This document shows positions 26,892 to 62,600 of a stretch of 64,000 nucleotides of DNA, piece by piece. A program made the translations under genes and the position numbers. The stretch is from Lolium rigidum (Eukaryota; Streptophyta; Magnoliopsida; Poales; Poaceae), in assembly GCF_022539505.1 (NCBI RefSeq), contig NC_061510.1, positions 400,812,249 to 400,876,248 on the forward strand. The letters are read 5' to 3'. Under the pieces are notes generated by a model that made no database searches, was not told the origin of the DNA, and saw only the letters and a program-made list of their open reading frames with translations. How positions within the stretch are numbered: the stretch's first letter is position 1; every line of letters begins with the position of its first letter.

Positions 26892-26902
26892 GAAAAATAG
26901 CT

Positions 26903-36404: not shown

Positions 36405-36415
36405 AGACAGTTTTC

Positions 36416-36433
36416 TGGCGCCGTTGCCGGGGA
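36416..36433 (+). other. Primer-binding site of element B (tRNA-Asp type)
   Basis: TGGCGCCGTTGCCGGGGA lies 12 bases after the LTR and is identical to the site of element A. Confidence 0.85.
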
Positions 36434-36676
36434 GGCATAGCTCTACTCATAAGTTCACCTGGGGAGTACACTCTACCTCTCTCTCTGTTTTTGTTTTATT
36501 TTATTTTGTTTTGCTTAGTTTACTTTTGTTTAGTTTATTTGTGCTTAGTTTATTTCTGTCTAGTATTATTTTTCTTAGTTTACTTTTGCTTAGTTTGTTT
36601 TTGTCTTGTTTTATTTTTCTCATATACCCAAAAATCCATAAAAATTTGAAAAGCCTAAAAATTAAAAACTGCTGTT

Positions 36677-38044
36677 ATGGGAGAACCCATAACCTACTTG
36701 GAGCTTATAGAATATTATAATAATTATAGAGAATCAAGAACTAGTAAAGTAATGAGTGCTATGATAGAAAAATTGAATACAATTGCTAAAATTTTGCTTA
36801 AACGCCATGATATAAATTGTTGCTCTAAAGAGGATACTAAACATCTGAAATTTCAATGTGGCTTTAGTGAAGAAGTTTTAATTAAGAACTATAATTGGAA
36901 TAGCTATATTCATCTTGGGTTCGAAGAGGTAGAACAATTTTTCTTATTTATGGGAGCCTCTGAGATAGAATCCTTCATGGCTAAAAATTATGAAACTTGT
37001 GTTGTTTGTAAGGACCTTAAAGATTATGTCTCTTCTATCCTTAATTTTTGCAATGAAAGTTACACTGATAATCCTTATATCATTGATTATAAAGAGAGAC
37101 TCATTAATGCACAAGAATGCACTCACAATTTGCGGGAACCTATGGAAGAAGAAATTGATGAACCTGAAAGCTCATTGGATGAAAAAGAGGAGGAAATTGA
37201 TGAACCTGAAAGCTCATTGGATGAAAAAGAAGAGGAGAGTGATGAACAAAAGGAGGAAGAATGAATTAGCTACCCATGCCAACCATCTAATGAGAGTAAC
37301 TCTTTATCTCTTACACTATTTGATTGTCCTCCATGCTTACCGAAAGAGGTTGAATGTTATGTTCCTGTGGATTCTCTTGAAATATTACCTATGAGTAAAA
37401 CTTGTGAGAATAATTATGCTACTGTTATCTATGATAATCCATGCTACTTTGATAAATCTTATGATAATGCTTTGTTTGTGCCTGATGTCGAAATGCATGA
37501 TACTAAAGAATTTTGCTTAGCAAATGTTTATGATAAATCTCTAGATGATGGTCCTATGTTACTTGATAATATTAATTGTACTACTAATGAAAATGGGATT
37601 GGAGAATTCTTGACTTTATCTATGAGTCCCATATCTTTTGAGATTGATCAATCATTATGTTATATTGTTGATAAAAGTGGGTTTGAAAGTTTGGATCCCA
37701 TTATTTTTGAGCTTGATAAGAATTATGTGTCTATGAATCATGAAAAACATGCTTTATGTGATAGTTATATTGTTGAGTTTGTTCATGAAGCTACTGAAAA
37801 TTATTATGAGAGAGGGAAATATGGTTGTAGAAATTTCCATGGTACTAAAACACCTCTCTATATGCTGAAAATCTTGAAATTACTCTTGTTTTACCTTCTT
37901 ATGCTTTTCACTTTGTTCTTCATGAATTTATTTATGTACAAGATTCCTATGCATAGGAAGAGGGTTAGACTTAAATGTGTTTTGAATTTGCTTTTTGATG
38001 CTCTCTTTTGCTGCAACTCTTATTTCTTGCGAGTGCATCATTAA
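36677..38044 (+). pseudogene. Element B protein, one in-frame stop, shared C-terminal module
   Basis: One frame of about 455 codons from ATG 36677, interrupted only by TGA at 37262-37264. The first part (195 residues) begins MGEPITYLELIEYYNN and ends in an acidic repeat, EEIDEPESSLDEKE, present twice in tandem. After the stop the same frame continues through SCENNY-like polar sequence to the module ALCDSYIVEF, YYERGKYGCRNF, TPLY, and hydrophobic stretches also found in element A. Near 37981 one extra base, relative to A, throws the last 30 residues out of frame, so the KELLGR ending is lost. The protein family is unknown to me. The N-terminal half has no counterpart in element A. Confidence 0.65.
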
Positions 38045-40480
38045 AACTGTTGGGCCCATCTTAATGGCTATAAATAAAGAACTTCTTGGGAGATAACCCA
38101 TGTATTTATTTTGCTACTATTTTGTTGTGTTTTGGAAGTTTTTACTACTGTATAAACCTCTCCTTATCTTTATTTTATTGCAATATTGTGCCAAGTGAAG
38201 CCTCTAATCGAAGGTTGATACTAGATTTGGATTTCTGCGCAGAAACAGATTTCTATCTGTCACGAATTTGGGCTGTTTTCTCTGTAGGTAACTCAGAAAA
38301 ATCTGCCAATTTACGTGTGTGTTCCTCAGATATGTACGCAACTTTCATTAGTTTTGAGTTTTCTGATTTGAGCAACGGAAGTACCTCTTTAAAATTCGTC
38401 TTTACTGGTTGTTCTGTTTTGGCAGATTCTGTCTCTGTTTTTTACATTGTCTCTTGTGGACTTTGAGTGAGGCTTTCTAGACGTGGAGAGCTGTAGCTAA
38501 TGTTTTATTGAGTTCTTGCAATGTGTCACTACAGGACCAAGGTGGATTCAAGTTTTTTGAGTACTAACCCCTCTAATGAAGTTTATGAGAAGTTTGGTGT
38601 GGAGGAAGTTTTCAAGGATCAAGAGAGGAGGATGATATATGATCAAGAAGAGTGAAAAGTCTAAGCTTGGGGATGCCCCCGTGGTTCATCCCTGCATATT
38701 TCAAGAAGACTCAATCATCTAAGCTTGGGGATGCCCAAGGCATCCCCTTCTTCATCAACTTATCAGGTCACTTCTATTGAAACTATATTTTTATTCGGTC
38801 ACATCATATGTACTTTACTTGGAGCGTCTGTGTGTTTATTTTCATTTTGTTTGTGTTTGAATAAATTCGGATCCTAGCAATCCTTGTTTGGGAGAGAGAC
38901 ACGCTCCGCTTTTTCATATGAACACTTGTTCTTCGTTTTACTTTTAATGTTCAATGATAAAAGTTGGAAGCTACAATACTTGTTATTATTTGGTTGGAAA
39001 CAGAAAATGCTTCATATTGTCTTGGATAATTTGACGCTTGGCAATTGTTTTGAGCTCTCAAGTAGATCATGATTAAGTTCTTGCACCATGTATTTTAAAC
39101 CTATTAGTGGAGAACTACCGTAGAGCTTGTTGAAATTGGTTTGCATGATTGGTCTCTCTTAAGGTCTAGATATTTTCTGGTAAAAGTGTTTGAGCAACAA
39201 GGAAGACAGTGTAGAGTATTATAATGCTTGCAATATGTTTTTATGTAAGTTTTGTTGTACTGGTTCATATTTGTGTTTGCTTCAAATAACATTGCTAGCC
39301 AAAGCCTTGTACTGAGAGGGAATACTTCTCGTGCATCCAAAACCTTGAGCCAAAACGTATGCCATTTGTGTCCACAATACCTACCTACTATGTGGTATTT
39401 CCTGCCATTCCAAAGTAAATTGCTTGAGTGCTACCTTTAAACAATTCAAAATGCTTCTCAATTTGTGTCAATGTTTTATAGCTCATGAGGAAGTATGTGG
39501 TGTTTTATCTTTCAATCTTGTTGGGCAACTTTCACCAATGGACTAGTGGCTTCATCCGCTTATCCAATAATTTTGCAAAAAGAGCTGGCAATGGGATTCC
39601 CAGTCCCAAATTAATTAACCAAAATAGACACTCCTCCATGGTATGTGATTGTTGGACGGCACCCGAAGGATTCGGTTAGCCATGGCTTGAGAAAGCAAAG
39701 GTGGGGAGGAGTGTCATCATAATAAAACTAAAATAAAAAGGCACTCCTTCATGGTATGAGATTGTTAGCAGGCACCCGAGGATTCGGTTAGCCATGGTTT
39801 GTGAAAGAAAGGTTGGAAGGAGTGCCACCCAAAAATAAAAGAAAATGGGAGCCGCTCTTTGAAGGTTTGTCCGGCAAGGGGGTTAGAGTGCCCACTACCA
39901 TTCGTTGACAACAACAAACACCTCTCAAAACTTTACTTTTATGCTCTCTTTATGTTTTCAAAACCAAAGCTCTAGCACAAATATAGCAATCAATGCTTCC
40001 CTCTGCGAAGGGCCTTTCTTTTACTTTATGTTGAGTCGGTTTACCTACTTCCTTCCATCTTAGAAGCAAACACTTGTGTCAAGCTGTGCATTGATTCTTA
40101 CATACTTGCTTATTTGCATTCATCATATTACTTTATGTTGACAATTATCCATGAGATATGCATGTTGAAAGTTGAAAGAAACCGCTGAAACTTATATCTT
40201 CCTTTGTGTTGCTTCGATGCCTTTACTTTGAATTTATTGCTTTATGACTTAACTCTTATGCAAGACTTTTGATACTTGTCTTGAAAGTACTCTTCATGAA
40301 AAGTTTTGCTATATGTTATCTATTTGTTAGCAACTATAGATTATTGCCTTGAGTCACTTCATTCATCTCATATGCTTTATAATAGTATGATCAAGGTTAT
40401 GTAAGTAGCATGTCACTACGAAATTATTCTTTTTATCGTTTACCTACTCGAGGACGAGTAGGAACTAAGCTTGGGGATGC
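38045..40480 (+). other. Element B 3' internal region, non-coding
   Basis: It holds a stretch (about 38215-38385) closely matching element A, with a small conserved frame CAETDFYLSRIWAVF. Purine motifs AAGCTTGGGGATGCC lie at about 38661 and 38721, with the functional copy next to the 3' LTR at about 40468. Long T- and G-rich spacers show no protein I recognise. Confidence 0.75.
39627..39830 (+). repeat. Tandem repeat in element B, units of about 105-115 bp
   Basis: The block CACTCCTCCATGGTATG...GGCACCCGAAGGATTCGG...GCCATGG, ending in GGAGGAGTG, is repeated with changes at about 39740-39830 (CACTCCTTCATGGTATG...). Each unit starts and ends with partly complementary CACTCC/GGAGTG, so each could fold back on itself. 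Confidence 0.7.
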
Positions 40481-42015
40481 TGATACGTCTCCAACGTATC
40501 CATAATTTCTGATGTTCCATGCTTGTTTTATGACAATACTTACATGTTTTGCTTGTGTTTTATAATGTTTTTATGCTTTTTCCGGAACTAACCTATTAAC
40601 AAGATGCCACAGTGCCAGTTCCTGTTTTCTGCTGTTTTTGTTTCCAGAAAGGCTGTTCGGGCAATATTCTCGGAATTGGACGAAATCAGCGCCAAACATC
40701 TTATTTTTCCCGGAAGCATCCAGAACACCGAAGGAGAGTCGGAGGGGAGCCAGGGGGCCCCACCCCACAGGGCAGCGCGGCCAAGGGGGGGCGCGCCCCC
40801 CTACTGTGTGGGCCCCCCAGAAACCCTTTTGCGCTGCCTCTTCGCCTATTTAACCCCTCGCGACCTAAATCCTCGATACCAATTGACGAAACTCCAGAAA
40901 GACTCCAGGGGCGCCGCCGCCATCGCGAAACTCCAATTCGGGGGACAGAAGTCTCTGTTCCGGCACCCTGCCGGGACGGGGAAGTGCCCCCGGAAGCCAT
41001 CTCCATCGACGCCACCGCCTCCATCATGCTTCGTGAGTAGTTCCCCCATGGACTACGGGTTCTAGCAGTAGCTAGTTGGTATTCTCTCCTCCATGTACTT
41101 CAATACATTGATCTCATGAGCTGCCTTACATGATTGAGATCCATCTGATGTAATCGGTGTTGTGTTTGTTGGGATCCGATGGATGATACATTATGATTAG
41201 TCTATCTATAAAGTTTGTGAAGTTATTGTTGATGCAATCTTTTTATGCTTAATGCTTGTCACTAGGGCCCGAGTGGCATGATCTTAGATTTAAGCTCTAT
41301 ACTTATTGCTTAGATTGTATCTACAAGTTGTATGCACATGTCACTTGTCCGGAACCAAAGGCCCGAAGTGACGAAATCGGGACAACCGGAGGGATGGCGG
41401 TGATGTGAGGATCACATGTTTTCACGGAGTGTTAATGCTTTGCTCCGGTACTCTATTAAAAGGAGTACCTTAATATCCGATAGATTCCCTTGAGGCCCGG
41501 CTGCCACCGGTTTGGTAGGACAAAAGATGTTGTACAAGTTTCTCATTGCGAGCACGTACGACTATATATGGAAAACATGCCTACATGATTAATAATCTTG
41601 ATGTTCTGTCTTAATGCTTTGAATCCTATCAATTGCCCAACTGTAATTTGTTCACCCAACACTTGTTACTTGTTATTGGAGAGCTACCACTAGTGTAGAT
41701 CGCTCGGAACCCCGGTCCATCTCTCATCATCATATACTCGTTCTATATGTCATTGGAAGTAGTATCAACTATTTTCTGGTGCCATTGCTTACGTATTACT
41801 TGCTACCACTTGCTTGTATTACTATTACTATTGCTCTCATATTACTCTCTGCTTTCACATCACCCCATTACTAGTGCTTTTCCAGTGCGGTCTGAATTGA
41901 CAACTCAGTTGTTAAGACTTATAAGTATTCTTTATCTCCCCTTGTGTCGAATCAATAAATTAGGGTTTTACTTCCCGCGAAGACTGCTGCGATCCCCTAT
42001 ACTTGTGGGTCATCA
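40481..42015 (+). repeat. 3' LTR of element B
   Basis: 1535 bp, nearly identical to 34872-36404, ending CTTGTGGGTCATCA before the target duplication GCAAG. Confidence 0.94.
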
Positions 42016-42639: not shown

Positions 42640-42739
42640 NNNNNNNNNNNNNNNNNNNNNNNNNNNNNNNNNNNNNNNNNNNNNNNNNNNNNNNNNNNNN
42701 NNNNNNNNNNNNNNNNNNNNNNNNNNNNNNNNNNNNNNN
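42640..42739. other. Assembly gap, exactly 100 N
   Basis: A placeholder gap of unknown true size. It should hide the rest of element C2. It also marks the left edge of the piece that seems to be inverted. Confidence 0.99.
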
Positions 42740-43626
42740 GTCGCCGGGTTCGGCTTGCTAGCCGGCGGGTTCGGCTTGCTAGCCCCGAGTTTGGCGATGA
42801 AGCCCCGGGTTGGGCGAGAAGTCCCCGGGTTCGGCATGCTAGCCGGCGGGTTTGGCTTGTTAGCCCCCGACTTGGGCGATGAAGCCCCGGGTTCGGCTGA
42901 GCAGCCCCGGGTCGGCCGGCACGAATATTGAATCCGAGTCCGGTGACGGTATGATGGACGGCTTCTTGAGAACCGCCAAGGCGACACCTGGCGGAATGGC
43001 TTGCCGGGTTGAGCCAATCTTGGATAAGGCATCAGCCGCTTCGTTGTTTGCTCGTGGCACATGGTGGAATTCGCAGCCGTCGAAGAAGCCGGATAGCTGC
43101 TGGACATGGAAGCGGTATGAGGCCATGTTGGCGTCCTTCGCGTCCCAGTCGCCGGATGCTTGCTGTATAACCAAGTCGGAGTCGCCGAAGCAAGAATGCG
43201 ACGCACGCCAATCTCCTTGGCTAGCTTCAGCCCATGAATGAGCGCCTCGTACTCCGCCACATTGTTGGAGGCGGCGAAGTGGATGCGCGGGACGTAGTCC
43301 GACGGTCCCCCTTGGGAGAAGTGATGACGATGCGGCTCCCAAGCCGTTGCGCATCTTCGAGCCGTCGAAGTGCATCTTCCAATGTGTGGAATCCGGCACG
43401 GGCGGCGATGCGCATCTCGGCCCGGTCGACGAAGAAGTCCGCGAGGATCTGCGACTTGATGGGCTGTGCGTGGCTCGTAGAGGATGGTGTGGGCGGCTAG
43501 CTCCGGGGCCCACTTGGCAACCCGGCCGTTGGCATCCTTGCTGCCGATGATTTCCGCCAAGGGTGCTGTGGCAACCACCACGATGGGGTGCTCTTGGAAG
43601 TAGTGCTTGAGCTTCTTGGCCGCCAT
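42740..43626 (-). pseudogene. Tat-lineage element: RNase H region of pol
   Basis: Read with frame changes, the minus strand shows WKMHFDGSKMRNGLGA, SNNVAEYEALIHGLKLAKE, GDSDLVIQQASGDWDAKD and VPRANNEAADALSKI. This is the Ty1/archaeal-type RNase H signature added in Tat-lineage Ty3/gypsy elements. It is followed by a low-complexity linker of ASKPNP/RGFIA repeats reaching the gap. The integrase that should follow is not here; it is found on the plus strand at 55065-56412. Confidence 0.82.
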
Positions 43627-43646
43627 GTAGACGCCGTAGGTGACCT

Positions 43647-44750
43647 TCAGTAGTGGGGGTAATTTTGCTTCGGCTGGGAGAGCACTTCGCTAAGGTAATA
43701 GGCCGGGCGGCTGAACCAGCTGCTCCCTGTTGCCGGCTTCTCTGCGCTCCACCACCGGGACAACGCTAACCACTCGGTTGGTGGCTGCGATGTACAACAA
43801 CATCGGCTCCATTGAACCGGCGTTGCAAGGATTGGCGCGGTTGAGAGCACGCGCTTCAAGTCACGGAAGGCCTCATCCGCTGCGGTGACCGGACGAATTT
43901 GTCCGCCTTCTTCATTAGTTGATACGGGGCGGTGCCTTCTCCCCGGCCGGGCGACGAAGCGGCTCAAGGAGGCCGGGCAGCCGGCAAACTTACGGACGTC
44001 CTTGAGGCGCTGCGGCGGTTCCATCTTCTCTAGGGCGCTGATCTTGTCCGGGTTGGCTTCGATCCCTCGGCGAGAGACGAGGTAGCCAAGGAGCTGGCCG
44101 GACGGCACGCCGAATGTGCACTTGGCCGGGTTGAGCTTCATCCGGAATCTTCTCAGATTGGTGAAGGTCTCTCTCTGGTCATCAAGGAGGGTAGTCGTCT
44201 CCTTGGTCTTTACAACGACATCATCCACATATGCGTGAACGTTTACGCCGATTTGATCCTGCAAGCATTTTTGCATGCACCTTTGGTAGGTGGCGCTGCA
44301 TTTTTCAAGCCGAACGGCATAGTCGTGTAGCAATAAGCCCCGTACGGGGTAATGAACGAAGTCTTTATTTGATCGGCCGGATTCAAAGGAATGCGGTGGT
44401 AGCACTGAATAGGCATCTAGGAAAGACAACGAGTTCACGGCCGGCGATCGAGTCTATGACTTGATCTATGCGCGGCGGGGGAAGGGATCCTTTGGGCACG
44501 CCTTGTTCGGGCTGGTGTAGTCGATACACATGCGCCGGGAGCCGTTCTTCTTCAAAACCGGGACCGGGTTCGCCAACCGGTCCGGGTGCAGCACTTCCAT
44601 GATGAAGCCGGCGGCTAGGAGCCGGGCGATTTCTTCACCGATGGCCTTCCTTCGTTCTTCGGCGAAGCGCCTGAGAGGCTGCTTCACCGGCTTGGCTTCG
44701 AGCCGGACGTGGAGGTGGTGCTCAGCCAACTCCCTCGGCACACCCGGCAT
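43647..44750 (-). pseudogene. Tat-lineage element: reverse transcriptase
   Basis: The minus strand gives VRLEAKPVKQPLRRF, ARLLAAGFIMEVLHP, NPVPVLKKNGSRRMCIDYT, a frame change near 44440, then ATYQRCMQKC, the catalytic AYVDDVVVKT, LNPAKCTFGVPSGQLLGY and YYLSEVLSQPKQNYP. Order and motifs are those of Ty3/gypsy RT. At least one frameshift separates the finger and palm parts, so it is inactive as sequenced. Confidence 0.88.
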
Positions 44751-44825
44751 GTCTCTTGGAGTCCACGCGAAGATGTCCCGATTCTCACGGAGGAAGGCTG
44801 GTGAGCTCGCTTTCCTATTTCTTGT

Positions 44826-45500
44826 TCAAGCCGGCACCGATGGTGACGAACTTGTCCGGCTGCGCCGGGTCCAGCGAGGATCTTCTTGGTGTTGTCGGCC
44901 GGCTGGAAGTGAGTCGTCCCGGCCGGGTTGCCCGCAGCCGGCATGTCGTGCTGCGCGGCTTTGGCGAGGCGACGGCGTCGTGGATGAGCTGCTTCTCGGT
45001 GGCGATGACCGGCGTGCGGGCCATCTTGGAGCTCGCGTGGCGCAGTCCATGGAGCGGCGATAGTCGCCGGCTACGGTAATGACCCCCTTGGGGCCAGGCA
45101 GCTTCATCTTCAGGTACCCATAGTGGGGCACCGCCATGAACTTGGTCAGGGCCGGCCTGCCCAGGAGCGCGTGGTAGGGACTCACGAGGTCCACCACCTC
45201 GAACTCGATTCTCTCGGTGCGGAAGTGGTCCGGCTTCCCGAACATCACCTCCCGCGTGATCCGGCCGATCGGCTGGCAGCAATGGCCTGGCACGATGCCA
45301 TGGAAGACGGTGGGGGTGGGGCGCAACTCGGCCTCTGGATGCCCGGCTTGCGGGCGGTGTCGCGGTAGAGGATGTTGATGCTTGCTGCCGCCGTCGATGA
45401 GGACGCGCGAGAACGCACGCTGCGCCGGGTTGTGCCGATGGTGGGGTCGAGGACCATGGCGTAGCTGCCCGGCTTCGGCGGGACAGCCGGTGTGTCGCGG
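44826..45500 (-). pseudogene. Tat-lineage element: aspartic protease region
   Basis: After the SINILY remnant of the (D)GGSSINILY active-site block (disrupted by a frame change near 45400), the frame shows VFHGIVPGHCCQPIGRI, EFEVVDLVSPYHALLGRP and MAVPHYGYLKMKLPGPKG. These are characteristic of the protease-to-RT part of plant gypsy pol. Confidence 0.8.
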
Positions 45501-47548
45501 CGATCAAAAGTGATGGCCTGCTCGACCGGTTTAGGTGCTGGGGGACCGGCGGTATGACCGCGTTGACCTCGAGGAACGGCGCTCTTGGCTCGTCCTGTCC
45601 TCGGGCTCGGAGGTGAAGATGATGTAGGTGGCGTCTTCGGCCGGATATCGGCCGGCATGGTGCACTTGGTTAGCCTCGTGGTGCTCGAGGTTGGCGTTCT
45701 CGCGCCGGCTTGGCCACCCGGCCCGCCGGCTGGTGGAGGCGGGGGTGGAGGCGGTAGAGGTTCACCGCTTGTCAGCCGCTTCATGAAGTGGCAGTCGCGG
45801 GTGGTGTGGTTGGAGGGGTTCTTGCCGCTGTGGTACTTGCACGGCGAGTCGAGCATCTGCTCGAAGGTGTACTTCGGCTTCCATTGCCGGTCTTGCTTCA
45901 GCGGCGGCTGCCGCCTGCCGCGTTGTACGCCACGGCGGCCACGTGGGCGGAGCCGTACCGGCGGTCCGGCTGGTCGTTGTGACGCTTGCCGCGGTAGTTG
46001 TCCCGCCGGCTGCCGTGCGAGCGCCCTCGGCCGGCTTGTTGTTGTCCCGTCTTGCTTGGGGCCGGTGAAACATCGGCCGGCGCCTTGCCGGCTTCCTCTG
46101 CCGGCGCGTACTTGTGCTGCGATGACCATCAAGGCGGCCATCGTCTTGGGCTCGCTGCGGCGTAGCTTGTGCCACGGCATGGTGTTGGGTCGGCAGCCGC
46201 CCATGAAGAAGGCGATGGCTTGCATCTCGTGCACGCCCTCGCAAGAGTTGCGCATCTCGCACCGGCGCGTCGAGTACGCGCGATCCGTCTCGTCCGGGCC
46301 CTGCTTGCACATCTCAAGCTGTTGAGGGCGACCCGGCCGGCGATAAGTGCCGGGGAAGTTGCTGATGAAGGCGGCTTCGAAGTCCGGCCAGCCGTTTATG
46401 CTGCCGGGCTGGCGGGTTGTTGAGCCACGTGCGGGCGGAGCCGAGTAGCATGAGGGGGAGTAGCGCACAGCCCGGCGCTTGTTGCCCTTGGCGATGCCGG
46501 CTGCCGTGGAGTAGTCCAGCAGCCAGTCTTCCGGCTTGGCGGTGCCGTCGTACTTGGGGGTGTCGCGCGGGAGCTGGAAGCCATCGACCATGGGCTCGTT
46601 GAGGATCCGCGGCCCGAAGCACTTTGGGCCGGCTGGCCCCTCTTCTTCCGCGATGCGGGATTGAACCGGCCGGTCGAGGCGGTCTCGGGCGTCAGCGGGC
46701 TCGATGCGCGGGCCCGGCCGGGAGTGTGCCGGCTGGCGTGCGCCGCTTGCTACGGAGCCGGCCGGTGATGACGGCGGGGCCCGGAGTCTTGCTCCTGGTT
46801 CCGGCTTGGAGGGGCCGGCTGCGGGCTGCTGCCGCTCGGCTGGTGGCTTGGCCGGCCCGGGCTGTGCGTGGCCGGGAATCATGGCGCCGGCTTGGTGCTG
46901 GGGAGGAGGACTCGGCCGTGTCCCCGGCGCCTTCCATGTCGTTGCTGCGGCTCCACGAGCGTGAGAAGCTGCGGGGGCATTGACATACACGGGGTCGGCG
47001 ATCTGCACTGTTGGCTGCGTTGAGCGGCTCGGTCACCCGCCGGTGCGGCGGCGTAACTCTTCGCCCTCGAGGCGGTTCAGCTCTTCTGCGGCGGCTTCGG
47101 CCGCGCGCACGGTCTTGTCGGGGGTGTTGTAGACGGGGAGCTCCGCGGACGGAGCCGGCGAAGGAGCGCCGTCGCGGGCGATCTCGGCGCCAAGGTCGCG
47201 GCCCTGCGGCGGATGTGGCCGGCTCGGCTTGGCTCGTCGCCGCACAGGTGAGGCCGTGGGCGCGGTTGTACTCGCGGCCGGGTGATCTCCATGCGGCGCT
47301 TAGCGGCAGCCGGTTCTTCGGTTTGCTTGAGGAGGAGCTGGCGGTGCGCCTCCAAGTCCGCCTCGATGGCGGTGGGGTCTCCGCCGGGCGTGAGCGGGGT
47401 GCTCAGCTTTGCCGGACTGCATCCAGCCGGGACGGTGGTGGTGGCGCTTTCGGGCCCGAGCCGGAGGCGTTGGGGTCGATGTTGCGCTCCAGGTCGGGGC
47501 CGCGCATGCGCGGGTTCTTGGTGGGGAGCTCGTCGCCAGCCATCATGA
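45245..47548 (-). pseudogene. Tat-lineage element: gag
   Basis: Starting near MAGDELPTKNPRMRG (about 47546), with frame changes at about 47400 and 47050, the main frame covers 47008-45245. Seen in order: a Pro/Ala-rich region, PKYDGTAKPEDWLLDY, the gag core (FEAAFISNFPGTYRRP and GPDETDRAYSTR), a Cys/His cluster CKYHSGKNPSNHTTRDCHF, and then the protease. These are typical of plant Ty3/gypsy gag. Frameshifts make it non-functional. Confidence 0.85.
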
Positions 47549-47842
47549 CTTGCACGACGGCGGGGCTGGCGGGAGCGGCTGCTGCCGGCTCGCGGAGGAG
47601 GGCTAGCGCAGCGCAGCACTGCCGCGGGTAGCGCGGCGGTGCGACGGTGGCGGCGTAGACGTCGAAGCCGCCGAAGGAGATGACGCTGCCGCCGGCTGGG
47701 AAGGGCCGGTCAGCGAAGCGGCCGGCGTTGTCGGCCGCGCGGTCGAGGAGCCGAATCTCCGAGATCAAGCACTGAGCGACTCGCTCGCCGGTGGTGGTGG
47801 TGAGGCCCGTCCGGATGAAGACACCGGCCGAGGATGCTGAAG

Positions 47843-47861
47843 GCCCCACGGTGGGCGCCAA
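47843..47861 (-). other. Primer-binding site of the Tat element
   Basis: On the minus strand TGGCGCCCACCGTGGGGC follows the LTR end (ACGACA) by two bases. The position is right for a primer-binding site. I do not assign the tRNA. Confidence 0.75.
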
Positions 47862-47862
47862 A

Positions 47863-48747
47863 TGTCGTGGTATCGTCACGGCATATGCCATAGGGTGGCT
47901 AATCGAAGTGGTTCTGAGGGATCTCACGGCGGTATCCGGATGCGGGTATGGGCACGAGCGACACGGCGACGTACCCGGGTTCGAGGCCCTCCGATGGAGG
48001 TAAAACCTCTACTCCTGCTATGAGTGTATATGATGATCACACGGTACAATGGTGCTCCTAGAGCTGTGTCTGGCTGCTCTACGAGAGGCTAAGGAAGACT
48101 ATGGTCTCTCTCACGGGGCAGCTACTGTGAGGTGGGTGAAAGCAATAAATGATCGATCACCTGCACGAGAGGGGGTAGTGCGGCTTATATAGGCACCGGC
48201 ACTTTACATATAAGACCCTATAGTTCTGCGGCCGGCTGGGCCGGCTCCGGCTTCCGCTCCTTCCCGAGGCGGTGACGTCGGGAGTGGTTGAGGCATCGTG
48301 GCCTGTCCCATCCGGCTGCCACGGTCGGCGGTATGGAGGAGGTGTCCCTGTCGCCGTCGGCCACGTAGCCGGTACGGATCGTCGTAAGCCACGACGGCCT
48401 GTCCGGCGCGTGGCACTATTGCTCCACGGTGCCCGCGCTTTACGGAAGATGGAGTCGGCGTGGACTTTGGGAACCCGGATCACCTACCCGGTTCCTTCCG
48501 GTGCAAGACTCGCCGGCCTCGAGTCGGTGCGAGGTACAAACCCCGGTCGGATATGGCTTGTAGAAGCCGGCCCAGCTACGGCATTGGTGGCCGTAGCCGG
48601 GCCGACTAGGACCTAGAGCCAGCCGGCTCCGGACCAGCCGGCCACGGCGCCAGCCGGCTGCTCCTCAGCCGGCCTTTGCCGCGAGCCGGCCAGTGGCCAG
48701 CCGGCTGCTCCGCGTCCATTGCCCTATCCGGGGTCTTCCCCCCGACA
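47863..48747 (-). repeat. 5' LTR of the Tat element (inverted in this assembly)
   Basis: 885 bp. On the minus strand it runs from TGTCGGGGGGAAGACC to GATACCACGACA and matches, in inverted orientation, the LTR at 61628-62514 (887 bp). It contains the core CTTATATAGGC and many CCGGCTGG motifs. The outer 5 bp (48748-48752, TAGAA on the plus strand, TTCTA on the minus) equals the target duplication beside the other LTR. Confidence 0.95.
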
Positions 48748-48880
48748 TAGAAAATATATCAGCATCTAAATTTTAAAATCAGTATTATGAGAACTAATTA
48801 TTTTAAATATGAATTTGGTATTATGTATGTTTATTTCTTTCTACTTCTATAGTCAAATTTGTAAAATTTGACTTTAAAAA
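48748..48880 (-). mobile_element. Half of a MITE split by the Tat insertion (left part)
   Basis: On the minus strand this reads AAGTCAAATTTTAC...GATATATTTTCTA. It continues at 62520 as TGTATTCGGTCAAACTTTG and ends ACGGAGGGAGTA at 62602. Together they have the internal pattern of a Stowaway-like foldback element (paired GTCAAA/TTTGAC motifs). The outer end on this side is degenerate. Confidence 0.6.
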
Positions 48881-50378
48881 AAAAAACACATGGTAAATAA
48901 AAACATGGGGATTAATATATATTGTCTCGCTACAAAACTTAAACAACAATAAGTAGTTTGCGAGACTGCATTGTCATTTTGTGAACTCAGATCTTCACCG
49001 GCGAGTGTAAGAGCCGCCCAGTCCATCAACTGACGTGGGTAACCACGACATCGCCCATATGAGTTGGGCTTGGGTTTTGGGTTAGAAGCGTAATGGTGGT
49101 TTGATGGTGTACAAGCACAACACAAAGGGAACAAAACAAGGTTTACCCAGCTCCAGGCCTCCGATGGAGAAATCCTATGTGCTGCTTGTCTGCTTGTATT
49201 ATGGATGATGATTACATAGTCGCCAAGGAGACAAAAAATGATGTTGATATGGTGTAACTAGGGTTTGGCGTATCTCTCTCTTTTCTTACCCTTGGCTAGC
49301 GGCCTCTCGTGGCTTTTATAAACGAAGCCAGGTCTCAGGGTGCCGAGTTCAGGTAGGTTACAATGATTAGAACTTATCTTTCTAAGCTTAGACCTTATTG
49401 CACACGTCGGGCCTTAGATGCCTCGTACGGCCCAACTCCATCTTGATGATGGGATCCTCATGGGCCTTTTCTTAAGCCACACCAAGTATACCTATAAGAG
49501 TGATCCATTTAGATGTACCCACATCACTAGTGCTGTACCCATTTGGGCGCGTTCATGTTCGTTTGACTTTTTTTTTTACCTTTCAAGTTAAAATAATTAT
49601 ACTTGAGCCAAAATAGTACATAAATTTGAACTAAACTAGATAAAGTGAAACTATAACATAAATTTAAAACTAAACTAATAATAGCTTATCTAGGGTTTGC
49701 CCTACTGCTCATTCGCTCTGCCACCGGTGGCCACGTGGGCACTGCCACCTCGAAGAAGTCCTCGGGGAGAAGCTCATCGTGAGAGTCAAACCATGACTCC
49801 AGCGGAGAAGAGTGCCACCGGAGGTCGTGCTTCGTCTTGAACCACTAGCTCCACTCCCACGAATCCATCACATAGTTCAGGACCTGGAGAGGGCTCGGCG
49901 GCGGCGGATCTCCAATTAGATGCCAACTCCGGAGGGCAGGCCATTTGACCATCAATTGGATTAAAATTCGGGGGCAAATTAGAGCCAAACTAACACAGCT
50001 CGAACGAGTTATCCGTTTATGCTACGCAAATACTGTGAGAAGCTGACGTAAATGTTAGCATGGGCAGACCATACACAAGTTTTGACCAGCTATTAGATGC
50101 AGTGACCCCATGTTAGCATGGGCAGACCACGAGTAGACCACTGATTGCAGGCGTTACGCATGAGTAATCACTTTGGTTACTGGCACTCTAGCATGGGATG
50201 CGAAAGCGATTGACCCATTATAACCGATGAATTTCCTCCTACTACGTACCTGCATTTCCACCAAAATCTTAAACATCCTAGTTTCGTGGCCTTGTCAGTG
50301 CAGCGACCCCCACCCACCCATCACTTCGGTCAACCGCTCAAACGCCATACTGGCACTCCATGCGCGTGCCGCCGGGGC
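48881..50378. other. Upstream region of the dehydrogenase gene; TE-derived pieces, no gene
   Basis: At about 48990-49500 the minus strand has TTTATAAAAGCC-like and leader-like sequence (GGGTAAACCTTGTTTTG) suggestive of an LTR fragment; ends were not paired. At about 49690-49900 the minus strand has a short protein-like stretch (DSHDELLPEDFFEV), again in the style of Harbinger-associated ORFs, with stops. From 49980 to 50378 is the likely promoter. Confidence 0.4.
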
Positions 50379-50387
50379 CATAAATAC
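50379..50387 (+). promoter_or_regulatory. TATA-like box and CA run before the dehydrogenase gene
   Basis: CATAAATAC lies about 109 bases before the ATG, followed by (CA)n at 50386-50399. The spacing is suitable for a TATA box. Confidence 0.5.
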
Positions 50388-50487
50388 ACACACACACCGG
50401 CCACAAGGCACTCACCTTCTCCGGCCTTCTCTCCTCCACCTGAGCTTGCCAATCCAGCAGCCAAAGCTTCCTGCCTCCTAGCTAGCA

Positions 50488-53400
50488 ATGGCGAGGCAAG
50501 CCATGACGAATGGGTTCCTCAGCTGCTTCATGCATGTGGGGCTGGCGCTGGTGCTTCTCGCCTACCTCCCCGTCGCCTTCGTCTGCCGCCTCGTTTACAG
50601 GCTGCTGGTCAGGCCCTTCGTCTCCGGCGAGGACCTCCGCGGCAAGGTCGTCCTCGTCACCGGCGCTTCCTCCGGCATCGGCGAGGTCAGTCTGCCCTAC
50701 CATGTACCGTGCGTTGTACAGTTCATTATGTTTCTTCTCTACGCGCGCCGTTCCATGGTGTGCCTTTGTTGAATGAATTGAGTATTGATTTTATAATTTT
50801 AGAAGTTACTATAAGGTTGGCGTGTCTTTGATATAGTACAAGAGAGTGATTTAGTGATGATAGTTTGATTTGTCTTCTGAATCATTCCCGACAAATATTC
50901 TTTTTTTTATCCATATACAGGGCCCCTCATATATTACCTAGTTTACGACCAAATACGATAAACAGACGATAATCTGGAGTATATACGTACCACCGTGAAG
51001 GACTGAAAGCTACGTGTAGCTATATGCTACATGCTCGTTGCCATGGAGTATACTCTAGCTCTGATGCAGATATAGTATTGGTACTATGTATGTATAGTGC
51101 CGTGTACAGTATGTTGGAGTGGAGTAGGAATATCAATTCTGTACTCGCCGCCTGAGTAAATGCAGTTTCCCGGCCCTTCGGGGCCATTCCCGGTTCCCTG
51201 GCCGTATTGAATTCTCACCCTCTATCCCTCCCATCAGTCTCCTGGAAACTTGCGACACAAGTGAGATGCAGGACAGCAGCAGTTATCGTGCACTGCATGC
51301 TGATGTTGCCAGCCATACGTGTCCACCACCAGCTGCATGTGACTATGCAGTCACCCGAGTAAATACCACCATCAATTATGTGACGGTGGTCACGAGCTAT
51401 TTGCGTAAACTACCGTGAACGGATCATGCTATTCCCATCTTAACTTTTTAAAATTTAAATATACCTAGACACTAAACAACACCTAGGTGCATCTAAATTT
51501 AGTAAAAATTAAGATAACTTTGATGAGACGAGGGAGTAGATCACATGCATGCTTCTACCGTGCATTCTCTGCATTAAGATTCCTCTTCTCAATTTTTATT
51601 GGTTTATATTAGATACTTCCTCCGTTCCTAAAAAAGCTTTGCAACTTTTATAAATACAGATGAATCTATAGCTAAAACATATCTATGTATCTCCGTATCT
51701 AGATAAAGTTGAGATTTTTTTTTTTTTTAGAAACGAAGGATTAGAAATCCATGTTCAATTTAAACTCAATAAAACACAGTGCACCCTAGAATCTCTAGAA
51801 TCTCATCATGGTAGGGCACAAAGCTGATGCGCGTATGTTGGGGCATTCACTTCTTATCGAAGTTTCATGCTGCCTAATCAAATTATGGGATAGGAAAATC
51901 AATGAAACCGTTCTGTTCCATCTACTGCCCATGTGTTCATTTTTTGTTGTATGTCCCACGAGGATTAAATTAATTGATGCATATGCCTTTGCCTCCTCGA
52001 TCTTGTTCCATTTGCAGCACCTTGTGTACGAGTACGCGAGGAAGGGCGCATGCGTGGCGCTGGTAGCTCGGACGGAGATCGCCCTGCGAGCCGTGGCCAA
52101 GACGGCGCGCGACCTCGGCGCGCCAGATACGCTGGTGGTGCCGGCGGACATCACCAACGTCGACGAGGCCAAGCGGGCTGTCGAGGAGACTGTCGCACAC
52201 TTCGGAAAACGTGAGTACCTCAGCCCCACAATTTCACCACTATTTTGTTAGTTTTAACGCCCCAAGAGCCAATTTGCTAGGACCAAAAAATCAATTACTC
52301 TTCTCAGTAATTAGTGCATGTGCCAATAGTTTTATAGACAGAATAAAAGAGAGAAAATATAGCAAAGAAAAAAAGGATAATAAATAAGATATGCCTTATA
52401 AACCTTAACAATTTTAAAGGATGAAGGGGCTAACGGGCGGGAGTACAGTTGACAATACTAGTGTATGCGTCAGATAACGACAACAATATGTCACGTTATT
52501 TAAAGAAAATCGCTATCAAGAGCGGTGATGTGAGGTTCTTAACAATAATACTATGTGATTAGTACAACATCTAGTCTTGCTGATGGTAGTGTGTACCACC
52601 GCTAGTCCTAGTCTTGCTGACGGGAGTAATTACAGTTGTTTGTACCGAGCGAGCGGGTGGATCAACTGCTTGCCAATTGAATGTCTCAGTAAGGTGAACC
52701 TACTTCTAGTAACCAAGCGTACGGCATGTCATTTTGAGTATACCGGCCATCTTAAAGTCAAACTGTTCGAAAATACTCTCTCCCAAAAATAGTCCAGAAC
52801 TTTTTGTGCAATTTTAAATTTTCAAATATTTGAAATTGAAAAAAACATTTTTAAATATATATTTGATGTCATAATAATCCCAAATTATTCTCCACACATT
52901 CTATCTCAAATGTTTTAGTGAACTGCAAAGTTTCAACTTTAAAAGTTGTATGATTCGAGCTTCTAGTGGTATCAAGCAAAAATAACTTTTATCAAACATA
53001 TTAATCAAGCAGTAATAACTAGTTTCAGACTAGCTAATTCCTCACTCGTTTCTATCGATCTGCAGTGAATCACCTGGTGGCAAACGCAGGAGTGTGGTCC
53101 AGCTGCTTCTTCGAGGAGATCACGAACATAACGGCCTTCCACGGCGTCATTGTAAGAAACATTCAATCGAGAGACATACACAAAACGATATCATCAGTAA
53201 TAATTTGTTTAATTCACAATAGAAGCGGTATAGTCTTCATGTTCTTTCTCCATACATTTATAGGATCTCAACTTCTGGGGCGCGGTGTACCCGACATACT
53301 TCGCTTTGCCCTACCTGAAAGCCAGCCGTGGCAACATCGTGGTCACGTCCTCGATCGCCGGCAGAGTCCCAGTGGCTAGGATGAGCTTCTACAACGTACG

Positions 53401-54134
53401 ACAGACTAACTTCTCAGTCAGCTCACCCAACATCTTTATTGTAGTCACCTTTATTCTTTACTAAATTTGAATCATTGGTACTCACTTCGTTTATAAATAT
53501 ATATCTTAGATTTGTCTAAATCTGGAGACTGAGGTACTACTTAGTACGTGTTGGAGGAAATCTAACTTTCTCGTCAATGTGCTTGTAGGCAAGCAAAGGC
53601 GCGGTGATACGGTTCTATGAGACATTGAGGTCGGAGCTCGGGTCGCATGTACGCATCACCATCCTTATGCCGGGTTACGTGGAATCCAATCTCACCATGG
53701 GCAAGGGCATCCAGAAGGACGGCAATGTCGGCATCGACGAGGAAGCCCGCGATGTACATATACATATATGCCTTTCAACATTAGATAGCTTGTGTTCTTG
53801 ATGGCCAGCCGACCGGTGAATTGATCAAGGTATATAATTTTGGGCATAATTGCAGATAAATGTGGGGCCTTTTCCGGTCGGGAAGACAGAGACGTTGGCG
53901 GAGGTGGTGGTGGCGAGTGTGCGGCGGGGCGACGACTACGTCACTTGGCCGGGGTGGTATTGGCCGTTCCACATGATGATGTGTGCTGCGCCGGAGGTCG
54001 TCGACTGGTTCTCCCGAGCGTTCTACGTCTCCAAGTCCGGCGACAAGGACGGTGACACCCTCAGCAAGAAGGTTCTTATGGCGTTCGGTGGCAAGAAGTC
54101 CTCTTTGTACCAGCCAGAGACCATCCGGTCATGA
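50488..54134 (+). CDS. HSD/steroleosin-type short-chain dehydrogenase, six exons
   Basis: Exons: 50488-50685, 52018-52210, 53066-53151, 53264-53395, 53589-53753, 53856-54134. All are GT/AG with matching phases, giving 350 residues. An N-terminal hydrophobic anchor with a proline knot (LALVLLAYLPVAF, residues 19-31) is as in oil-body steroleosins, so the enzyme is probably on lipid droplets or ER. The NAD(P) motif TGASSGIG is at 58-65, NAG at 137-139, and the catalytic triad Ser189, Tyr202 and Lys206 (FYNASK) is complete. The family is annotated as 11-beta-hydroxysteroid dehydrogenase-like; plants use it on sterols or brassinosteroid-related compounds, and the substrate here is unknown. Intron 1 (1.3 kb) carries MITE remnants. 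No defect is seen. The gene sits in the contig that appears reversed, so its true strand is probably minus. Confidence 0.93.
51433..51536. mobile_element. Stowaway-like MITE remnant in SDR intron 1
   Basis: The right end GACGAGGGAG is followed by TA. The interior is an imperfect foldback (CTTAACTTTTTAAAATTTAAATA...CTAAATTTAGTAAAAATTAAG). The left end is eroded (TTCCCATC). Confidence 0.5.
51616..51740. mobile_element. Stowaway-like MITE in SDR intron 1
   Basis: It starts CTTCCTCCGTTCCTAAAAAAG after TA and ends TTTTAGAAACGAAGGA. The ends are related by inverted complementarity (TCCGTT...AACGAAGGA), with a truncated right terminus. Confidence 0.6.
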
Positions 54135-54349
54135 ACGAAAACTAGCCATGAAGAATGTATGCACGGGGCCTGTTAAGCAAAGAAGTTATCTTTACTATTA
54201 AATGAAAGTTGGGAATGATGAGATGTTCTTTAGCACTTATCCTTAAAACATGCTTTGTCCAGCTTTGTAAATAAATCAACCATAAGCATACATCTTCACG
54301 ACTAAGTTAAAGAAAAAAACAGTCTGATGGGCTCACATCACAACAAAGC

Positions 54350-54645
54350 CTAACATAAACAACACAAAAGAGGCCGCGCCCCTAGGGTGTCGGCAAGGCG
54401 AAGCAGCTCAACGACCGGATGGGGAAGGGAGGCGACGTGGCCAATGCAAGTCTCGAAGCATAGCATCCAGTCGCTCCCTATCCCATTATCTACGGAGCGG
54501 GTACCACTACTACAAAGCGCCAACAATTTGAAAATAGAGTCATCAATGCATTGTAGGAAGGTTCTTTTAATAACCATCTTGCTACGAATTTTCCAAAGAG
54601 TCCAAATCATGGCAGCAAACATCAACCAGAATAAGCGCCTCCGTT
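54350..54645 (-). pseudogene. 3' end of the LINE, at the edge of the inverted contig
   Basis: On the minus strand, starting at the gap edge, AACGG is followed by codons for RRLFWLMFAAMIWTLWKI, RSKMVIKRTF and a tail ending LCCLC before a stop. This is exactly the continuation expected of the LINE that breaks off at 33568 with SNTGER. The first five bases equal the C2 target duplication with one mismatch. In a corrected assembly this piece reads on the plus strand right after element C2. Confidence 0.85.
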
Positions 54646-54745
54646 NNNNNNNNNNNNNNNNNNNNNNNNNNNNNNNNNNNNNNNNNNNNNNNNNNNNNNN
54701 NNNNNNNNNNNNNNNNNNNNNNNNNNNNNNNNNNNNNNNNNNNNN
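54646..54745. other. Assembly gap, exactly 100 N
   Basis: A placeholder gap and the right edge of the piece that seems to be inverted. The true gap should lie inside the pol region of the Tat element, where a nested insertion (54746-55064) starts. Confidence 0.99.
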
Positions 54746-55064
54746 CCATGATCACCATATGGATGGCAAGACTCAAGCAAAGGATCTCTTCGAGATGGCT
54801 CATCTTGAACTTGCACTTCATTTCTTCATTCTTCATCATGTTGATGTCTTGAAGTAACTTGAGGGCTCACTTCATCTTCATCTTCAAGACATACTTGACA
54901 CTTGATATCCTTCATCAATTTCTTCTTATTGCAACCTTGAAGCCAACATATGGTTCAAGCATTGCCTATGGACAACTCCTACAAATATAACTCAATGCAA
55001 ACATTAGTCCATAGGGATTGTCATTAATTACCAAAACCACACATGGGGGCTCCAAGCACTTTCA
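54746..55064 (+). mobile_element. Right end of an unidentified element nested in the Tat pol region
   Basis: Non-coding and AT-rich, ending ACACATGGGGGCTCCAAG and CACTTTCA directly before Tat coding sequence. A terminal CA fits an LTR end. The left end would lie in the gap, so neither the target duplication nor the class can be tested. Confidence 0.5.
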
Positions 55065-56412
55065 CCATGCAGTCGAATCCGGAAGCTCCCACGCAGGAGG
55101 CCCTGTTGGTCAGCGTATTCGAGATAAGATGCGTACCTTCATGGGCACAAGAATTCCTCTCCTACCTCACCGACGGTGTCTGCCCTGATGATAGAGTCCA
55201 GGCCAGGCAGATTGAGAGAAGGGCCAAGGCCTATACCATCATCAACCACCAGCTGTACAAACGCAGCGTAAGTGGGGTGTTCCAGCGGTGCGTCGAGCCG
55301 GCTGAAGGGATTGAACTCCTACGGGAAATCCATCGAGGAGAGTGCGGACATCACGCCTCATCCGCGAGCCATAGTGGCCAAAGCCTTCCGGCACGGTTTT
55401 TATCGGCCGACCGCGCTCGGAGACGCGTAAGATTTGGTGAAGAAGTGCAACGGCTGTCAGCGCTTCGCAAAGCAAAGACACCAGCCGGCTTCCGCCTTGA
55501 AAACCATCCCCATCACATGGCCGTTTGCCGTATGGGGCTTGGATATGGTAGGCCCATTCAGAACAGCGCGATACGGCATGACACATCTCTTGGTGATGAT
55601 TGACAAATTCACCAAGTGGATCGAAGCCAAGCCAATCAAGAAACTGGACGGGTCCACAGCCGTCACTTTCCTCAAGGAAATCATTGTGAGATTCGGCTAC
55701 CCCCACACCATCATCACCGACAACGGCACCAACTTCTCCCAAGGCATCTTCTCTCGCTATTGCGGGGAAATGGGGATCCGGATGGCCCTATCTTCTGTGG
55801 CACACCCAGAGTCCAATGGACAAGTGGAAAAGGCTAACGGCTTAGTCCTAGCCGGCATCCGGCCCCGGCCGGTGGAGCCGCTCGAGCGAGCAGCTCGGCT
55901 GCTGGATTGAAGAACTGCCCAATGTGCTGTGGAGCCTGCGCACAACGACAAAACGCTCAGTCGGCTTCACACCATTTTTCCTCGTATACGGGGCCGAAGC
56001 CGTCTTGCCGACTGATATCGAGCATGACGCGCCAAGGATCAAGCTCTACACAGAAGCCGAAGCCAAAGAAGCTCGCGAAGATGGAGTTGACCTGGTCGAA
56101 GAGGCCCGGCTGCTGGCTGAGTCTAGATCTACTATCTACCAGACAAAGCCTCCGACGCTATCACAGCCGGAAGGTCCAGCCCTTAGCATTCCGAGAGGGA
56201 GACCTAGTGCTCCGGCTGATCCAGCAGGACAGCCGGACAGCATAAACTATCATCCCCATGGGAGGGTCCCTTCATCGTGAGCAAGGCGATGAGGCAATGA
56301 TTCCTACTATCTCATAGATGCCCAAGAGGCTAAGAAAAACAAGCCGGACAAGGCTGACGAGGAGACTAAACATCCCTGGAATGTCAGGTTACTCCGCCCA
56401 TTTTACACATGA
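55065..56412 (+). pseudogene. Tat-lineage element: integrase
   Basis: Read with frame changes: LTDGVCPDDRVQARQIERRA, AKAYTIINHQLYKRS, the zinc finger (HRGECGHHASS, then KKCNGCQRF), the core D in GLDMVGPF, D in TDNGTNFS and E in NGQVEKAN (the DD35E triad), then GFTPFFLVYGAEAVLP and the C-terminal end HPWNVRLLRPFYT before TGA at 56410-56412. Shifts near 55370, 55880 and 56150 disable it. It is the missing continuation of the pol that ends at 42740 on the other strand. Confidence 0.88.
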
Positions 56413-57010
56413 GAGCAGGAATGTATGTATCCCTTTGTATCCCTTTTGTGAGTTATGAAAAAGCTTGCGCCAAGAGCGCTGTTTCCGACAAGTTTTTCGC
56501 GTACTTTACCTTGTTTCGCCAATTGGCTTGAACCCTCTCACGCGGTCGGCTCAGTAACGTGATCCGGTTTCCGACAGCTCGGCTTCCGATCCAGCCTACT
56601 GCACCGCAACCCGGCTGTCCGGCTGGCGGGAGTAAGGCCTAGGGAGCCGCACGCGAAAAACGACTAAGGGAAAGAGTAAAAGCGAGTTGACTTGCAACTT
56701 TTCATAAAAGTGCCGGATTGCCGAATTCAGCTCGTTCGACCGAAGTACTCGTCGGCCTCACCCAGCGGCCCGCTCTTGATCCGGCGACGGATCGCAAGTC
56801 GGACGTACGACCGGCAAGGGCACATCCAAAGAGTGGGGCGGATGGGAAAAAGCGAACGAGTCGAAAGAAAGCAACTCGGCACACAGATGATTAACAAACA
56901 CATTAAAGCGTGCCTTAATAAAAGGATAATAACATTGTCTTACATATGCACCCGGCATCCCGGGGATTTAACGAATTGTCTTGGCAAAAGCATAAGGAAA
57001 CAGGTAAAAG
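56413..57010 (+). other. Spacer between integrase and antisense gene
   Basis: Non-coding element DNA with CCGGCT-type motifs. It includes the probable 3' UTR of the antisense gene. No further domain is recognised. Confidence 0.6.
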
Positions 57011-60000
57011 CTAAGCGCCGGCTGGATCAGAACCAGCCGGGGGAGCATCAGCAGAGCCGGCCGCCGGGTCATCCTCGGGCACATCGTCCGCCTCCTCGTC
57101 CTCAGCCGCCTCCTCCTCGTCGTCAGACGGCGGATTCGGGTCCGCGATGAAGATGGACTTATCGACGAAGTCGGCAATGGCGCGAGCGCGGGCAAGCCGA
57201 GCAGGTCTTGTTCTCCGCCGGGAGCTTGTCCTCCACGCCGGCGCGCCGGAATTCCAACCGGTCGAGGCTAACCTCGTTATACCAGGAGAGCACAAAAGAT
57301 AGCGCCATATCGGCTCCGGCGCGCGTGGCCGACTCCTTCCAGCCCAAGAAGCGGTCGGGAGCCCCGTCCAGCCAAGCGATGAGCTTGGAGAGATCTTCCG
57401 GCAGCGTCTCCGTCGGCCACGGCAGCCGGATCAGCTCCTCCGCCGCCTTCCGCAGCTCCCGGCCAAGCTTGGTGACCGGCTCCACGCGGGCGGCGATGGA
57501 CGCCGGATAGTCGTCCATGGTGAAGCGGTCGGAGCTCTGCTCCCCGGTGGCCGCCGGCGATCCTCCCGCGCTCGCCAACGAGCCGCTAACGCCTCCTCCT
57601 CGCGCCTCGTGGAAGGCCGCTGCAAAGAAGAAAAGCATGTCGAAGCCATCAAAGCCGAAATAAGCTGAAAAATGCAAATTTTCAAAGTCCTAAGTAAGCT
57701 CCGGCGGCAGCCAGCAAGATCCGACCGCCCTCAGCCTGAAGATGGAGATTCCAAAGCTCTAAAGAAAGCTCGGCGACAGCCGGCAAGAACCGACCGCCTC
57801 CAGCCCGAAGATGGAGATATCGAAAAAATCAAGTTTCTCGCCGCCGGCTGCCAACCTAAGCCGGCTGAGCCGACGGCCGAAAGCCGGCAAAGGGGAAGGC
57901 ATAAGACAAAAGACCCACCCGCCAAGCCGCGGTCGAGCGCGCTAAGTTCCTCCCAACCACCGCTTGGTGGTGGCCGACAACTCGTTGGACTTGGTGGTCA
58001 CCTCTTGCCGGAGCGCAAGCCGCTGCCGTTCCACCTCCTCCAACCGCTTGCTCGTACCCTCCAGCTTTTCCTCCTGTTCCTTCTTGAGGGCGGCAAGTTC
58101 CTTGAGATGGTTAGCCTCAAGAAGGCGCAGCCGTTTCAGCTCCCGTCGGCCAGCCTTCAGCTTGACGGCAAGCAGCTCTGCTCGCCTCCTCACTTGTGGC
58201 GCATTGAGCGCGGGCAACTCGGAGGTCCGACTCAAGCTGCGGGACCCGGGCGGCCTCAGCCGCAAGCCGGCAAAAACAAGCCGTCAGCAAAACGAAGCGT
58301 AAAAAGAGTAAAGGCAAAGAAGAGAAAGCCTCACCCTTGACAGCCTCCAGCTCGCGAGCCAAGCCGGCTCGCTCGATCTTGGCCTTGTGGTAGCTAGTCA
58401 CCACCTTGTTGTACAAGACGGTGCGTCGCTCCGTAACCGCCTAAAAGAAACAATCAGATATCCAGACGAAACCCGGACCGGCTCCAAGCAGCCGGACCAT
58501 GCCTCGGAGGGCTACCAGGATAATAACAAAATTGCAAAAACAAGAAGACACCTACCTTGTCAGCATCCTCCAGCGTTGCTAGCTGGGCAAGGGCCTCGGC
58601 GGCCTTGTTCTTAAGGGCGGCCCGGTAGCCGGAGAAGACCATCTTCATGGGCGCCGTACCAGGCTGCCCCTCCCGGTTGAACACCTCGCAAGAATCCGCC
58701 GTATGCCACGCACGCCTCCATGGTGCCAGCCGAGCCAAGGCCGGGAGTCGAGAGGCGGACGGCACATGCAGCAGCCGGGCCCCCTTGGCCACGTGAAGGC
58801 CCTCGGCTGGGCCCGGCGGGCCCTCGTCCTCACCCGAGCCCGGAGTCGGCGTCCTTTGAGCGCGCCGGCTGCCCCCTCGCCGGCTCCTTCCCGGTCGGCT
58901 CCTCCTCGTCGGCTCCGGCCGGAGGCGGCGCGGTCGGCGCAGCCGGCCCGGTGGGAGCCGCTCGCATCCGGCGCTTGAGGCGCTCCTTTCGGAGAACTCT
59001 CCAGCACCACGACGTTGGGCGCGGGCCCGCCGACCTCGGTCGAGGCGGCGCAGCCCCACCGGCTCCAGCTCCCGCCGCGAGCTTGGCATGCCCCCGCCGG
59101 CCCGGCTGCCCGCTCCACAAACGGGGCGCGGCGCGGAAACATGTCGTCTAAGGTCGGCCGGCGCGCCGACTGACCCTGGTCTCCGCCGCCAGGCGCCGCA
59201 GAAGGCGCGGCATAAGAAGACGCCCCCGCAGAAGGTGGCGTAGCCGCAGGCGGCACGTTAGTAGCCGGCGGCGTGCGCGCGCGTGCTGAAGGTTGCGGGG
59301 TTGGCTCCCTCCTTTGCCGCTGAAGCGGCGACGTGACGGGAGGAGCCTGCCGAGAGCCGCCTCCCCGGGTAAACTTAATCGCGGCCCTAATCGAACAAGC
59401 AAGAAAAGATAAATACGAGAGGAAGGAAAGAAAAGGAATCAAACAACGAGAGGAAAAGAACTCACCCGGCTTTCTCCGGGACCTTCTTGGGCGCCAGCCG
59501 GCGCTGTTTCTTGGCCCTCGCCTCCGAAGCGGCCGTGGACCCGACGCCGGCCCGCTTCCTCCCCTTCGGCGCAGAAGTCGCCGTGCTCGTAGGCGGCGGC
59601 GCGCGGCAGGCACCGCCGGGATGGGCCCCGTGCCGGATTGGGCCGGCTCCGCCTGCGTCCGCTCCCCGCTCCTCGCTCCCGCTCATGCTCGTGCGAAGGC
59701 GGCGGGTTATGCTCCCCCGGCCGCCCGATCCTGCGCCACCGGCAGATCATCGTCGCCAGCTTGGTCGCCGGCTAAGTCAGCCGGGTCAACGAGATCCGGC
59801 GTCCAGACCTTCGTCGCCAAGTCGCCATCCTCGATGCCTTGGCGGGTGAAAAGCTGAAAACAAGACAAGATAAATATCGAGTCGGCCACGCTGCCGCAAG
59901 TCGGAAGACGGAAAAACATCAAACTTACCAGTTCAGGCGGCTGCTCCCGATCGTAAGGCGCCAGCCCCCAGTCCCAGTTGTCCGGCATGTTGGCCTTGGT

Positions 60001-62514: not shown

Positions 62515-62600
62515 TTCTATGTATTCGGTCAAACTTTGTATAGTTTCACTTTAACTAAACCCTGGTTGCAGGGTAATTGTGAACCGAGGGACGGAGGGAG
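62515..62600. mobile_element. Half of a MITE split by the Tat insertion (right part)
   Basis: It begins with the target duplication TTCTA, continues TGTATTCGGTCAAACTTTG, and ends GAGGGACGGAGGGAG before TA, a Stowaway-type terminus. The other half is the outer flank of the inverted LTR (48748-48880). Confidence 0.65.

Follow-up and report, generated by a model that had tools for sequence, protein, structure and literature searches.

A short contig very likely placed in reverse between two scaffold gaps of the Lolium rigidum reference genome

Introduction

The locus described here raises the question of whether a short piece of the published Lolium rigidum sequence is printed in its true orientation. 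The window, by which we mean the whole 64,000-nt stretch that was analysed (C3:400812249-400876248), contains two runs of 100 N, gap 1 at 42640-42739 and gap 2 at 54646-54745, and no other N runs. Read from left to right, the contig bounded by them (42740-54645; 11,906 bases) carries one half of a minus-strand LTR retrotransposon, a plus-strand gene for a short-chain dehydrogenase and the end of a minus-strand LINE. A first-pass annotation had proposed that this piece lies backwards between the gaps, on the basis of the LINE and of the retrotransposon.

The reference genome of L. rigidum has a size of 2.44 Gb in 1,764 scaffolds, seven of which are chromosomes, and its report describes Nanopore contigs from Flye, purging of duplicates, ALLHiC scaffolding and manual curation, the reads being deposited under BioProject PRJNA799061 (PMC9664059). 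Orienting short contigs by Hi-C is difficult (PMC7672694).

Results

A LINE divided between the left flank and the opposite contig end

On the plus strand at 28618-33568, with 28618 as a provisional left limit, there is a LINE remnant, interrupted by an apparent solo LTR (C1, 30372-32403, flanked by AGGAC at 30367-30371 and 32404-32408) and cut at 33568 by C2, an LTR element to whose family C1 seems to belong. The remnant ends there in ...SNTGER, and the contig read from 54645 downward gives RRRLFWLMFAA. We used the remnant left of 33568 alone as the query, read across frame changes with X at stops, and obtained 15 protein relatives. In a tblastn comparison with the window, 5 of the 15 (P0001, P0002, P0003, P0006 and P0011) reached 33568 or came to within at most 6 bases of it, and the remaining 10 stopped short. 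All five that reached the break resumed on the minus strand, at 54643 or 54640, with 49-69% identity in the first stretch, in agreement with the earlier claim that the LINE continues on the complement of 54645. This continuation (54411-54645, minus strand) gives the first LINE residues behind the target duplication of C2. For 4 of the 5 relatives the last residue matched on the left was also the first matched on the right, which would be expected of a 5-bp target duplication whose two copies code for one and the same residue; P0011 has two unaligned residues between its two matches. Relatives that cross the break in a single chain read TGKR|SRLFW, TGKR|RRLFW, TGRR|RRLFW and TGER|RRLFW. The assignment to LINEs by RT and zf-RVT domains was made through the relatives only, with PF13966 or PF00078 precomputed for 7 of the 15. 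A search for a target duplication of the whole LINE, in which the 3' side was compared with 20401-30371, gave just five overlapping or scattered 9- and 10-mers. There is also a more distant LINE remnant at 19090-20424 (plus strand), sharing 24-40% identity with the broken LINE's relatives.

An LTR retrotransposon with inverted halves

The second divided element is a Ty3/gypsy LTR retrotransposon, putatively of the Tat type. Its 5' LTR (47863-48747) lies on the minus strand with the outer flank at 48748-48752, which reads TTCTA on that strand, and its 3' LTR (61628-62514) lies on the plus strand with the outer flank TTCTA at 62515-62519. The pair is 97.5% identical (22 mismatches in 879 aligned bases, plus 14 gap columns) and mutually inverted, so the earlier observations on the LTRs and on the outer 5 bp were both reproduced, and an LTR pair with a 5-bp target duplication is present. 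The left half (42740-47862, minus strand) carries gag-like, RT and RNase H regions and ends in GC-rich tandem repeats with an 81-bp unit (42740-42916), which lie in the Tat linker at the contig end and are a likely cause of the assembly break. The right half (55058-61627, plus strand) carries the integrase and then an antisense ORF (60009-61175, minus strand, 388 aa). Within the contig Pfam located RVT_1 and RNase H, both on the minus strand, and beyond gap 2 it located the integrase core on the plus strand; the order of RT, RNase H and integrase was found with the halves searched separately. The gag-like domain scored 23.9 bits against a cut-off of 24.1, and the ORFs submitted gave no Pfam match to a protease. 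The domain layout given before thus stands for gag-like, RT, RNase H, integrase and antisense ORF, but the protease named in it was unseen by Pfam, and the statement that no domain is duplicated or missing holds for the Pfam-visible domains, which do not include the protease.

The halves were also kept unjoined in the search for relatives, for which the RNase H piece was the sole query (543 relatives, 120 of them listed). All 120 listed relatives matched the left half, and 32 of these matched the right half too, on the plus strand from 55028 onward; 7 of the 120 also matched outside both halves. A stricter count of tails covered 118 of the 120 and omitted P0026 and P0072, for which no left match reached the required 45% identity although both match the left half in the less strict count. 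In 48 of the 118, the protein ran on beyond the left match for 80 residues or more, and 29 of these 48 tails matched the right half. The other 19 did not, most of them resembling variable linker, and this was counted against misorientation. None of the 48 tails matched elsewhere, hits back in the left half aside.

What the two gaps stand for

C2 (33569-42639, plus strand) consists of a 5' LTR, a nested element and the start of the internal part, and it is cut by gap 1. The LTR occupies 33569-34871 and resumes at 42021; the nested element B (34872-42015) is inserted at a repeat boundary inside it and has a GCAAG duplication on both sides. Behind the LTR there is a primer-site-like stretch and then 24 codons of a short open frame to 42639. 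There is no C2 LTR copy in the window right of 42358, and no C2 3' LTR in the window; gap 1 must therefore stand for the rest, that is most, of C2 in the corrected order. The three ORFs of element B that were submitted had no gag or pol domain above the Pfam cut-offs. Element B and another LTR element of the window (21717-28617, minus strand, LTRs 98.1% identical, duplication GTTCC) have common internal sequence, 80.5% identical over about 1.8 kb.

In the corrected order, gap 2 falls between RNase H and integrase, within the Tat linker and beside the GC-rich repeats at 42740-42916. Because not one of the 32 Tat relatives extending into the right half matches the 282 bases at 54746-55027, a further insertion is probably hidden in part by gap 2. 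The sequence foreign to these relatives (54746-55057, minus strand, the limit 55057 being set by eye) probably represents a nested element's end. We dropped the idea that 54746-54866 is copia-like, as its 33 residues gave no Pfam family.

A second copy of the region

By way of the dehydrogenase flank, a second copy of the region was found in the genome (2,438,458,167 bases in 1,764 sequences), on the same chromosome, about 0.81 Mb away and in the opposite sense. We compared 60 kb of that locus (C3:400027001-400087000), which contain one N gap at 13 kb from the nearer join, with 8137-63994 of the window. The window segments follow one another there as 63994-62515 (minus), 48745-54643 (plus), 33524-33399 (minus) and 20729-8137 (minus), with no N at or between the joins and with indels between some blocks. 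Among blocks of more than 70 bits, all 6 from the contig are plus (6,032 aligned bases), and those from outside it are minus in 13 of 14 cases (6,439 aligned bases). The lone plus block outside the contig (89 bp, 8720-8808) is out of order and was counted against misorientation, as was the finding that none of the 20 kb preceding the window on its left gives a strong block within the 60 kb compared. In the 20 kb to the right, both of the blocks above 150 bits are minus. From the senses of the blocks it follows that, relative to the second copy, the gap-bounded contig is the only part that is turned. Three ORFs of the window, with Exo84 C-terminal, cupin and UDP-glycosyltransferase domains (Pfam; 900-2057, 5445-6170 and 16041-17465), are possible anchors of gene order. 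A 236-bp tandem duplication at 18559-19031 was also observed in the window, of which the second locus seems to hold one unit.

The second copy is without the Tat and the C2 insertion at these sites and displays both joins uninterrupted. At the Tat site, 62752-62515 (minus) runs directly into 48745-49779 (plus); 117 of 120 bases are identical, 71 of them consecutively across the join, and the target duplication occurs once. At the LINE/C2 site, 22 consecutive identical bases cross the join and AGCGG is present once; 35 bases of the window's LINE just beyond the join are missing from this copy. The target duplication AGCGG/AACGG that had been assigned to C2 is confirmed by it, and since the second copy of the region shows AGCGG, the AACGG at 54641-54645 probably arose by a later change there. 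The second copy supplies a line of evidence independent of the two used before, and it agrees with the reversal of the contig. The second locus may be a segmental duplication or a retained second haplotype.

A real inversion of this copy after the insertion of Tat and C2 would also give the printed order, and the second copy would then just display the ancestral one. The gaps conceal some of C2 and, probably, a portion of a nested element, where breakpoints could sit. However, such an event needs both breakpoints in exactly the two gaps that bound one short contig, and we consider it highly improbable. No breakpoint was seen within assembled sequence; both switches of orientation relative to the second copy fall between gap-separated blocks, as had been claimed from the coincidence of the breakpoints with the gaps. 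Among the assembled contig ends we saw no inverted repeats through which recombination could have produced an inversion. An inversion private to this haplotype, with breakpoints in those portions of two nested retrotransposons that the assembly lacks, would be a very unlikely history. The two joins and the second copy all support the previous judgement that an error of scaffolding is the likelier explanation.

The flanks of Tat had further been said to join into one MITE. Their foldback scores 38, which was equalled or exceeded by 7 of 1000 shuffles and by 83 of 1938 other pieces of the window, and the DNA fold of the joined flanks has a z of -2.26, with 5 of 200 shuffles folding as well. BLAST found no other MITE copy crossing the join in the window; in a gapped alignment, one low-identity stretch crosses it with a score of 60 (mean 25, sd 6.9, 636 pieces). 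Because the foldback, the fold and the copy searches are weak by themselves, we rejected the MITE as an independent line, and it counts only through the second copy, where the adjacency of the flanks is upheld.

The dehydrogenase gene

The gene carried by the contig is predicted to encode a short-chain dehydrogenase of the 11-beta-hydroxysteroid-dehydrogenase-like kind (50488-54134, exon limits predicted; plus strand as printed, minus once turned). Its exon blocks are open across 50488-54134, and the predicted protein has an adh_short domain (Pfam), and is 96% identical to a Festuca glaucescens protein. Across the protein searches, relatives from Lolium and Festuca were recovered. Exon 1 has 8 matches in the genome, of which 2 are full-length, one at this locus and the other at the second locus with 99% identity. 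A comparison of the two copies over five exon stretches, 747 coding bases in all, gave 12 differences, and since 11 of the 12 are synonymous, both look maintained.

With a second copy of the gene on the same chromosome, a mixing of copies is conceivable, by which a contig from another place or haplotype would have been inserted here wrongly. Yet both ends of the contig fit their neighbours independently, the LINE in frame and the LTRs with an identical flank, a full-length exon 1 occurs in just those two places, and the second locus has no Tat or C2 insertion at these sites. We regard a misplaced contig as scarcely credible, and less so than an inversion. If the contig is instead in its right place and reversed, the gene belongs on the minus strand, as the second copy and both joins indicate; the strand printed would be wrong, as was suspected earlier, and the annotation of the gene would carry the wrong strand relative to its neighbours.

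Discussion

Because the split LINE, the inverted Tat LTRs and the second copy of the region agree, we judge that the contig at 42740-54645 was placed in reverse during scaffolding, with a probability of roughly 0.96 as far as can be read from sequence. Scaffold gaps bound it on both sides and both broken adjacencies are restored when it is turned: the LINE and the Tat element each become whole, the latter with matching target duplications, and the contig becomes collinear with the second copy. The reversal is very likely an ordinary assembly error of a short contig and the apparent inversion an artefact, as the first-pass annotation had proposed.

The ends of the contig sit in nested retrotransposons, where the assembly broke, one end being the LINE base that adjoins the C2 insertion and the other the GC-rich repeat within the Tat element. 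The misorientation would have arisen in Hi-C scaffolding. The wrong orientation may have won owing to few contacts for a contig of 11.9 kb, and the inverted second copy nearby perhaps also favoured it.

L. rigidum is a major weed and the artefact very likely sits in its published reference genome. A comparison with other ryegrass genomes would show a false inversion of about 12 kb. The orientation of a contig can be read without reads from target duplications, split frames and the uninterrupted site in a duplicate, and this approach could be applied to every short contig between gaps.

The divided element resembles Tat-type Ty3/gypsy elements, to which it putatively belongs, in its LTR pair, target duplication, gag-like region, RT, RNase H, integrase and antisense ORF; it appears as an ordinary element which differs in being split in the printed scaffold. 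Extra ORFs are described for plant LTR elements (PMC7264820). The case is like those treated in the HiC-Hiker paper, in that a short contig has the right place and the wrong orientation between scaffold gaps (PMC7672694). Unlike there, the evidence here comes from sequence inside the contig and from a second copy, not from Hi-C contacts; that paper also treats 3D-DNA output, with contigs below 15 kb set aside. Our use of LTR retrotransposons as an internal test of an assembly is shared with the LTR Assembly Index (PMC6265445), which rates continuity, whereas we take the orientation of a single contig from target duplications and split coding frames.
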